Shown here: in pieces, positions 5,848 through 32,370 of the stretch
Layout of the letters: each line of letters starts with the position of its first letter
Numbering within the stretch: position 1 is the first letter of the stretch
Assembly: GCA_034439655.1 (NCBI GenBank)
Contig: JAWXAU010000126.1
Span: 1-32,526, forward strand
Origin: Bacteroidota bacterium
GTDB lineage: Bacteria > Bacteroidota > Bacteroidia > UKL13-3
Direction: 5' to 3'
DNA: 32,526 nt
Translations under genes and position numbers: made by a program
Notes under the pieces: generated by a model
What the model was told of the DNA's origin: nothing
Databases searched by the model: none
Seen by the model: the letters and a program-made list of their open reading frames with translations, nothing else

Positions 5848-5997
5848 AATAATACCGAAACTAAACATATAATCGTGCAAAGTAGGAGGAAAAGCCCCCG
5901 CAAGTTTGCGGGGCTTTGGGGATGTAATTCGGAATTTTCATTCTAAAAACTAATCAGCCTCAGGCAGAGAACTATTTTAGTTTAAAAATTTGTATAA
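5848..5997 (+). repeat. MITE-like dispersed repeat, copy C (diverged)
   Basis: Starts AATACCGAAACT and ends TTGTATAA like the other copies, but with many substitutions; the TCCGCC..GGCGGA motif has decayed to TCAGCCTCAGGCAGA. The central hairpin is replaced by CCCCGCAA-G-TTGCGGGG-type pairing (5896-5913) flanked by AAAG/CTTT, which could work as a terminator. It is probably an older copy than B and E. Confidence 0.65.
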
Positions 5998-23410: not shown

Positions 23411-23467
23411 ATGAAACATCGTAGATCATTGTCAGGTGAATACTGCTGTACCAAAAAATATTACTAA
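23411..23467 (+). CDS. Possible 18-residue leader peptide
   Basis: An ATG-started frame of 18 codons (MKHRRSLSGEYCCTKKYY) ends in TAA one base before the next ATG (23469). Such a spacing permits coupled reinitiation. The sequence is basic with no known homology, and a chance open frame is quite possible. Confidence 0.2.
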   Translation: MKHRRSLSGEYCCTKKYY

Positions 23468-23468
23468 A

Positions 23469-24753
23469 ATGAAACAATATGAAACATTTCTTATCATACT
23501 TTTCTTAATTGTATATTTTAGCTCAAGTGGGCAAATTCAACAATTCTCAAAAGCAACTAATGAATATGCAACATATTCGTATACAGAAAAGTTAAAAACT
23601 ATAACTAAGAAAGAAGTATTTCAATTTTGCTTTTGTAAATGGCAAGATAAAATTTCTCATGATAGTTTGGTCGATTTGTATATACGTGAGTTTAAAACCA
23701 AAGAATATGATATTGTAAAAAATAATCCTAAGGCATACCAAATTATGAAAAAAGAGTATCATGATTCGGTGCCGCTCTATAAAGGCGAGAATACTATCTA
23801 TTGTTCTGAACCTATTGCTAATTCATGGAATAATTATGACATCGTAAATGAGAGATTTGATTTGAACATTAAAAATGAATTGGTATATATATATAATAAT
23901 GCGATTCATAATAGAAAAATGCGATATGGACTAAAACTTGAGTACGGCGACTATGAATTCCCTTTAAAATTAAAGCTAAATAAGAAAAATGCACGCAAAT
24001 TCACTAACGCAAAAACAAGTAAAAATGCACAAAGCAAATGGGTAACAAATAAGAATATTTATTTAGTATATATCTATAGTTTGGATAATAATTCATTCCA
24101 ATCATTGATATCAGCTATTTGTGCCAATTAGATAGAATAGAGGTCTGGGACTCGAAGGAAAAGAAAAATTATTTGGGAGATATTGAGATGGGAAATTATT
24201 CTCATGCTTATGATATTATAGAAGAGGGTGATAGAGTTGGTTCTACAACTATGTCTTCTCCAGAAGGGGATATTGAACCTCCAAGTACTGATACATCCAC
24301 AGCTTATGACGTTTCCCAAGTAGATGATAATCCTAAATTTAATAATTTGAATGAGTATATTATGCGAGAACTTGAATATCCAGCCTATGAAAAAGATGCT
24401 GGGATACAAGGCGTTGTTCATGTTAAATTTGTTGTTGAAGTTGATGGAAGTTTGAGAAATATTAAAGTTGTAAAAAAGGTTACCGAAAGAATGGACAATG
24501 AAGCTCTTAGAATAATTAATACCAATTCTTAACCTATAATAGTTCTCCGCCTGTGGCGGATTAGGTTAAGAATGGTAATGCCGAACTACATCCCGAAAGT
24601 ATTCGGGATTAGTCCCTTTCTTTTGGACTATTATATATTGAGTTTCGGTATAAAAGAATAAGTGGCCCTGGTAAATGGAAACCAGCAAAGAAGAATGGGA
24701 ATGCAGTAAGATTTAGTTATATATTACCAGTGATTTATACAATTGATGAATAG
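23469..24753 (+). pseudogene. Secreted TonB_C-domain protein gene, frameshifted and interrupted by a MITE-like repeat
   Basis: From the ATG at 23469 a signal peptide (MKQYETFLIILFLIVYFSSSG) starts a 220-residue frame ending at 24131. A second frame, from about 24119, continues in a way that reads like the same protein and reaches a TonB C-terminal domain (YPAYEKDAGIQGVVHVKFVVEVDG to NEALRI). This domain stops at 24532, but its missing end, KWKPAKKNGNAVRFSYILP, resumes after 24655 and ends at the TAG at 24751. Between them sits the repeat at 24516-24654, flanked by AGAATAA twice; removing the insert and one copy restores EALRI-SGPGKWKPAKKNG. The family (energy transducer TonB-like, periplasmic) is often a sensor or stress protein. 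Two independent breaks make the gene non-functional. Confidence 0.8.
24516..24654 (-). mobile_element. MITE-like element, copy E, with 7-bp target duplication
   Basis: A 139-bp copy, in reverse orientation to copies A-D, flanked by AGAATAA at 24509-24515 and 24655-24661. Ends are near-inverted: TTAATACC and, from the other side, TTTATACC. Internally it holds TCCGCCTGTGGCGGA (24546-24560) and TCCCGAAAGTATTCGGGA (24591-24608). No transposase is encoded; a helper transposase would be elsewhere. Confidence 0.8.
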
Positions 24754-26732: not shown

Positions 26733-27473
26733 TTGCAAAAAGATAAAACCATACATGTAGATTTATTTGTACCCTGCCACATCGATCAGTTTTGGCCTGA
26801 GACGGGCTTTAATATGAAACGACTTTTGGAACTGGCAGGATGTGTTACACATTATAATACGGAACAAACTTGCTGCGGTCAGCCCGCCTTCAATGCAGGT
26901 TTTTGGGACGATGCCAAAGAAGTAGGTGAAAAATTAATTGGCGAACAACTTGCCGGTCATTATATGGTTGCCGCTTCATCTGGTTGTGTGAGCATGGTGC
27001 GTCAATCCTATAATCAGCTTTTCGAAAATTCATCAGTGCATAATCCCAGTAAAAATTTACAAAAAAACTTTTTCGACTTTGCAGAATTCTGGGTGGATAT
27101 ATTAGGCAACCCTCATTTAAACGCAACTTTTAATTCTCGCGTTGCTTTGCTCGACAATTGCAAAGGCATGCGTGATTGTAAAATATTTGATCAGCCTCGA
27201 AAACTGCTCGCTCAGGTGGAAGGACTCGAATTGGTTGAAATAAAAGACTATGATACATGTTGCGGTTTTGGCGGAATATTTTCGGTAAAGTATGAACTTC
27301 TATCAGTTGCACTGGCCGAAGAAAAATTGAAAAATGTAATGGATACTGGTGCCGAATTTTTAGTGTGTACCGATGGCGGTTGTTTGATGCATTTAGATTC
27401 CTATATCAAAAAAAACAACTTGCATATTAAAGCTATACATATAGTAGATTTGCTGGTGAAAGGGTTGAAGTAG
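26733..27473 (+). CDS. lutA: LutA/YkgE-type (Fe-S)-binding oxidoreductase subunit
   Basis: A 246-residue protein with two CCG domains (TCCGQPAFNAG at 46-56 with CCG 47-49; TCCGFGG at 175-181 with CCG 176-178), the conserved HDRD-like DNCKGMRDCK, and ASSGC. LutA is one of three subunits (LutABC) converting L-lactate to pyruvate. No lutB or lutC gene is next to it. The start is TTG at 26733: an in-frame stop lies at 26703, no ATG lies between, and the conserved N-terminal VDLFVPCHIDQFWPETG begins at residue 9, so a downstream ATG (codon 28) would remove it. A -7 element ends 6 bp before the TTG, so the message may be leaderless. Confidence 0.88.
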   Translation: MQKDKTIHVDLFVPCHIDQFWPETGFNMKRLLELAGCVTHYNTEQTCCGQPAFNAGFWDDAKEVGEKLIGEQLAGHYMVAASSGCVSMVRQSYNQLFENSSVHNPSKNLQKNFFDFAEFWVDILGNPHLNATFNSRVALLDNCKGMRDCKIFDQPRKLLAQVEGLELVEIKDYDTCCGFGGIFSVKYELLSVALAEEKLKNVMDTGAEFLVCTDGGCLMHLDSYIKKNNLHIKAIHIVDLLVKGLK

Positions 27474-27726
27474 TAGATAGTGGTCAGCCCGCCGCGGCGG
27501 GCAGTAGATAGTAGTAAGTAGACAGTAGATAGAAGTAAGTAGTAAGTAGATAGATAGTGGTCAGTAGAGTAGACAGCCCGCCGCGGCGGGTAGTAGTAAG
27601 TAGATAGTAGACAGCCCGCCGCGGCGGGTAGTAGAAAGTAATAATATTAAGATGAAAAAAATGTTGCGTCAGCACCCCATCCCGATTGCAATCGGGGCCT
27701 AAATCTCATATCCCAATCCCTAGCCC
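27474..27726. repeat. GTAGATAGTAAGTAGA-like simple repeat with three GC palindromes
   Basis: A low-complexity purine-rich run built from GTAG, GATA and TAAGTAG words (about 27474-27640). It carries three identical CCCGCCGCGGCGGG palindromes (27488-27501, 27577-27590, 27615-27628). A further perfect 16-bp palindrome CCCGATTGCAATCGGG follows at 27681-27696. No gene or clear promoter for ruvB is seen; the open frame on the minus strand here is a product of the low complexity. Confidence 0.75.
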
Positions 27727-32277: not shown

Positions 32278-32370
32278 TTATACCGAAACTCAATATATAA
32301 TAGTAAAAAAAAGAGGGACTAATCCCCCCGCATCCCGATAATTATCGGGATTAAGCGAGGCTTTCGGGAT
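32278..32370 (+). repeat. MITE-like dispersed repeat, copy D (first half only)
   Basis: Starts TTATACCGAAACTC and contains the same 20-bp palindrome ATCCCGATAATTATCGGGAT (32332-32351) and the surrounding CCCCGC stem as copy A (the second arm is degenerate). It stops matching after CTTTCGGGAT (32370); the second half with TCCGCC..GGCGGA is missing. Confidence 0.75.

Follow-up and report, generated by a model that had tools for sequence, protein, structure and literature searches.

An abundant orphan MITE family with a probable 3-bp TWA target duplication in a Bacteroidota genome

The palindromic repeat that breaks a TonB-type gene in the stretch of DNA analysed here (the window, 32,526 nucleotides) belongs to a new orphan MITE family, specific to a single lineage and present in one species. 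Its members are in all likelihood non-autonomous elements of 115–165 bp that occupy T-A/T-A sites, duplicate 3 bp of their target and would be mobilised in trans by a putative DDE transposase, a reading to which a probability of about 0.88 is assigned. The duplication can be recognized because one copy, here called copy E, lies inside a gene whose intact relatives preserve the empty site.

The window is contig C126 of a 3.5-Mb MAG of 205 contigs that is 97% complete, and whose gene content, namely TonB_C proteins and IS types, suggests a member of the Bacteroidota. The search for all copies proposed in the first-pass annotation returned approximately 243 right-end sites genome-wide (at most three mismatches), against none for a reversed control pattern. 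A profile was run over 1.54 Mb (44% of the genome), taken in stretches for base-by-base reading as a sample that leans to copy-bearing contigs, and found 97 full-length copies and 62 partial ones. None of 58 related genomes, among them both same-genus genomes (G001 and G002), contains a match to the repeat. Its exact 19-base right end was matched three times in 84,980 species genomes and once in viral contigs, which is about chance level, and the element itself had no significant match there. Hundreds of copies in one species and zero in two genomes of the same genus amount to a lineage-specific burst, and several genes are interrupted by the repeat. MITE and resident IS copies are also located at many contig ends, and together they have probably broken up the assembly.

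Besides copy E, sequence matching places copies on the reverse strand of the window at 1–134 (truncated by the contig start), 5669–5800 (132 bp), 5853–5994 (142 bp, diverged) and 32281–32370 (partial, B side only). The second and third of these are both flanked by TTA/TTA, share one orientation and lie 52 bp apart. At 27472–27644, units resembling AGTAGATAGTAGTAA form an array that is punctuated by the palindrome GCCCGCCGCGGCGGGC. Elsewhere in the sample, a MITE copy lies no more than 400 bp from four of the five ATPase-like genes identified by a P-loop motif (C31:41637, C66:22011, C177:22604 and C150:18743), while 16% of ORFs overall have one at 300 bp or less. This association with DUF4143 ATPases is post hoc, draws on small numbers and is offered as a lead.

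Folded as single-stranded DNA, the element forms two adjacent palindromic hairpins, A of about 58 nt and B of about 74 nt, with a z-score of -6.9 for the whole. In copy E (forward strand), module A is a long hairpin, TACCAATTC...GAATGGTA, at 24520–24577, and is also delimited by A-only partial copies, which match model positions 2–62. Module B, TGCCGAAC...GTTTCGGTA, follows at 24578–24651, and the fold together with the class consensus sequences locates a variable inner arm within it. The three size classes (about 120, 133 and 161 bp) differ in this arm, which is absent, consists of CCCGAAAG-CATT-CGGG, or forms a nested hairpin CCCCGC...GCGGGG that holds a further ATCCCGATAATTATCGGGAT. No gene is present inside the element, and the full range of 115–165 bp is too short for a transposase.

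The modules also occur in larger arrangements. A-AB composites are found on C4, C150, C41 and C99, and one copy is nested in the A/B junction of another on C172. The outer TWA trinucleotides match on both sides in five composite or nested units, and therefore composites seem to move as units. This architecture could be extended to a fully modular MITE whose palindromic halves join, repeat as A-AB, nest at TWA and travel as one, whose size classes arose as the hairpin grew at one arm, and whose amplification to hundreds of copies in a single species depended on an enzyme that is not recognizable among the transposase families searched. Such an extended scheme is considered unlikely.

The non-autonomous MITE proposed above finds support at the element ends, which read TWA-TACC...GGTA-TWA over all copies. 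The terminal inverted repeats are short, and TACC...GGTA is near-invariant in 96 copies. The W on the left agrees with that on the right in 66 of 89 copies (p=1.1e-5); among 90 simple copies, the flanking TWA are concordant in 64 of 83 (Fisher p=1.5e-6). Agreement is strong in the better-conserved half of the copies (24/29) and disappears in the diverged half (18/32). Such a loss fits a duplication that erodes as copies grow older, although the two halves differ also in size class. About a quarter of the simple copies carry a discordant W while the other end bases are near-invariant. This discordance exceeds what the other mutations suggest, and copies may therefore also have been altered by repair of their ends or by recombining with one another.

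The correlation of W between flanks bears directly on whether the elements are instead TA-specific MITEs of the IS630/Tc1 type, comparable to RUP or Correia elements. TA is found at both termini, the targets are AT-rich and bacteria commonly carry elements of this kind (PMC2229807). A bare TA duplication nevertheless does not predict correlated W bases; W therefore lies within the duplication, and a TA-specific origin has a low probability.

A 3-bp duplication of TWA is also what copy E displays. Its mobile unit, TACC...GGTA, covers 131 bp at 24520–24650 on the forward strand and belongs to the 133-bp class, as defined by the profile match, by boundaries from 96 copies and by the empty site in homologues. 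It is flanked by TAA at 24517–24519 and 24651–24653, called as the target duplication from a gap-free empty site and from the concordance of left and right TWA over copies. The first-pass annotation had instead proposed a 7-bp duplication of AGAATAA. This heptamer is indeed present on both sides (24509–24515 and 24655–24661, forward strand), and exactly 139 bp lie between (24516–24654) with near-inverted ends, TTAATACC...GGTATAAA.

The interrupted gene distinguishes the two duplications by length. Its 5′ part (24119–24532, forward strand; Pfam and ORF list) ends at a stop codon within the element and matches TonB_C over profile positions 2–53 of 79 (E 2.8e-10). The 3′ part (24654–24753, forward strand), identified from sequence and homologue alignment, remains an open frame that ends in ...RISGPGKWKPAKKNGNAVRFSYILPVIYTIDE with a stop at 24751–24753. 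Copy E thus truncates the TonB_C domain after EALRII and supplies the stop codon, supporting the earlier view of a mobile MITE-like element inside a TonB_C domain whose end continues 3′ of it. Excision under either model keeps the frame, the products differing by 12 nt: removal with one AGAATAA gives EALRI-SGPGKW, and removal of TACC...GGTA with one TAA gives EALRIIKRISGPGKW. The intact same-genus homologues read EALRVLKKISGPGKW in G001 and EALRVMKKISGRGKW in G002, a second G001 homologue reads EALRVVQLISGKGKW, and an intact paralogue in the genome itself (contig C43) reads EALRVMRKISGAGKW. Alignment of the excised DNA with the G001, G002 and C43 homologues has no gap across the junction when TAA is counted once, and therefore the 3-bp duplication is right. 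The 7-bp excision loses four conserved residues (EALR[IIKR]ISGPGKW against EALRI-SGPGKW); the domain end that it was said to restore does stay in frame but falls four residues short of the homologues. The refuting condition set in the first-pass annotation, relatives that lack both the repeat and the tail, does not hold: the intact same-genus homologues carry the GKWxPAKxxG tail. The insertion itself is real.

Since the duplication is TAA and not AGAATAA, the mobile unit is 24520–24650 and both heptamers are host-gene sequence, each covering R-I codons. By the homologue alignment and the chance expectation, they are the gene's own AGA ATA ATT AAA AGA ATA, and their 7-base match is a coincidence. 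A flanking 7-mer match beyond the ends is found in one of 96 copies, against the 0.6 expected by chance after random re-pairing of left with right flanks among the copies. Three further intragenic copies also fit 3 bp. Removing the element together with one TWA recovers a DUF2306 membrane protein on C128, with 88% and 84% protein identity to G002 and G001, respectively, and gap-free DNA. In a glyoxalase-like gene (C90) compared with G001, such excision gives the same junction length, with two compensating single-base gaps upstream. A response regulator (C146) aligns gap-free at the junction with both G001 and G002, with one single-base gap about 36 nt off. Two syntenic intergenic copies (C156 and C87) aligned too poorly with G002 for an empty site to be defined. 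In total, four independent intragenic copies with same-genus empty sites fit a 3-bp duplication. Although the 7-bp model explains an exact AGAATAA on both sides and a frame restored on excision, the homologues and the genome's own paralogue need four more codons, which already refutes it, and its probability is very small. A plausible but wrong duplication call was in this way corrected by the length of the empty gene, the sole test able to decide.

The same comparison dates copy E, which was inserted after the lineages of G001 and G002 had separated from that of its host. At 94.2% identity to the class consensus, it sits at the median of its class (about rank 22 of 36) and is not an especially recent copy. 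The earlier description of copy E as relatively young is weakly supported, given this median divergence, although the insertion is post-split and the 3′ half still open. The TonB_C frame at 24119–24532 is also missing the customary membrane anchor, and an upstream ORF of 231 aa (23436–24131), for which Pfam gives no match, overlaps it; a frameshift may have affected the gene before or besides the MITE insertion.

Strong hairpins, two tandem palindromic modules and high abundance mostly outside genes are equally features of REP/REPIN-type palindromes mobilised by a RAYT (Y1/HUH) transposase. However, Y1_Tnp (PF01797) is absent from the 97%-complete MAG, while control genomes gave matches, and a target duplication is present here. 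Y1 enzymes are not known to make such a duplication, and a REPIN origin is highly improbable. Least probable of all is that the repeat is no transposon but a structured RNA or a regulatory sequence under conservation. The low fold z-score would suit this, but covariation is not in excess (8 double changes, where shuffling predicts 12) and so gives no indication of RNA selection; moreover, Rfam gives no match, genes are disrupted and the repeat is absent from the same-genus genomes.

For the non-autonomous MITE, a DDE transposase supplied in trans would recognize short inverted ends made up of TACC with a few further bases, and would paste the element into TWA targets in the manner of IS5/PIF-Harbinger-type enzymes. 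TWA is the hallmark of PIF/Harbinger elements, and bacterial IS5 elements belong to the same superfamily (PMC4482050); by this analogy, the duplication points to an enzyme of that type and offers a concrete handle for finding it. A transposase with TACC-type ends, which the first-pass annotation suggested looking for, was not found. The DDE_Tnp_1, DDE_Tnp_4 and DDE_Tnp_1_2 matches include no partner with matching ends and all belong to other-ended ISs: the DDE_Tnp_1 matches are IS4-like (C83) and IS1182-like (C95) elements with unrelated ends, and the DDE_Tnp_4 and DDE_Tnp_1_2 matches are fragments of ISs with other ends. DUF4096 is absent from the genome, and long TACC...GGTA pairs of 0.6–3.5 kb in 44% of the genome enclose nothing but apparently ordinary host genes. 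The resident IS5-type ISs end in GACCTCTTTCATAATT and GGGTCTGGTCAAAAACTC, which differ from TACC, so no partner is assigned. The autonomous partner may be extinct, missing from the MAG, or too diverged in its ends to be seen.

Resident ISs are also found within MITE copies. One copy is interrupted by an IS4-like element whose ends read CCTATCGTGTGGACACA (L178, G000:C83, 294–1901). Many contig ends (for example C146:39678, C81, C150:34954, C39, C129, C184 and L030) cut through the IS5-type IS with ends (A)GACCTCTTTCATAATT, of which C19 and C168 carry DDE_Tnp_4 fragments. This IS5-type element is also found repeatedly inside MITE copies at one internal site, ATATT/GAG, which suggests a hot spot.

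Several known systems resemble the family in part. The IS5 superfamily and PIF-Harbinger elements (PHIS) share the 3-bp AT-rich duplication and its TWA signature (PMC4482050), whereas here no such transposase with the MITE's ends was found in the genome. The MITEs of Porphyromonas gingivalis (BrickBuilt, MITEPgRS, MITE239/700) likewise reside in a Bacteroidetes genome, but their TIRs match resident IS5-family elements and they number 10–20 copies (PMC4596501), in contrast to the TACC... TIR, the lack of a matching IS and the ~243 right ends seen here. Correia/NEMIS and RUP are also non-autonomous elements of 100–165 bp with TA termini and, for Correia, size classes (PMC2229807); RUP differs by its TA target and IS630 link, a comparison made by description. 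The family is ERIC-like in size, termini and abundance, and this likeness, set by description, is confined to those properties. ERIC/IRU, an enterobacterial MITE of 127 bp, is palindromic with a short TIR of about 7 bp and TA termini, and its copy number can run into the hundreds (PMC2229807, PMC10969869). The present family differs from it in an unrelated host organism, a 3-bp TWA duplication and a modular body of two hairpins.
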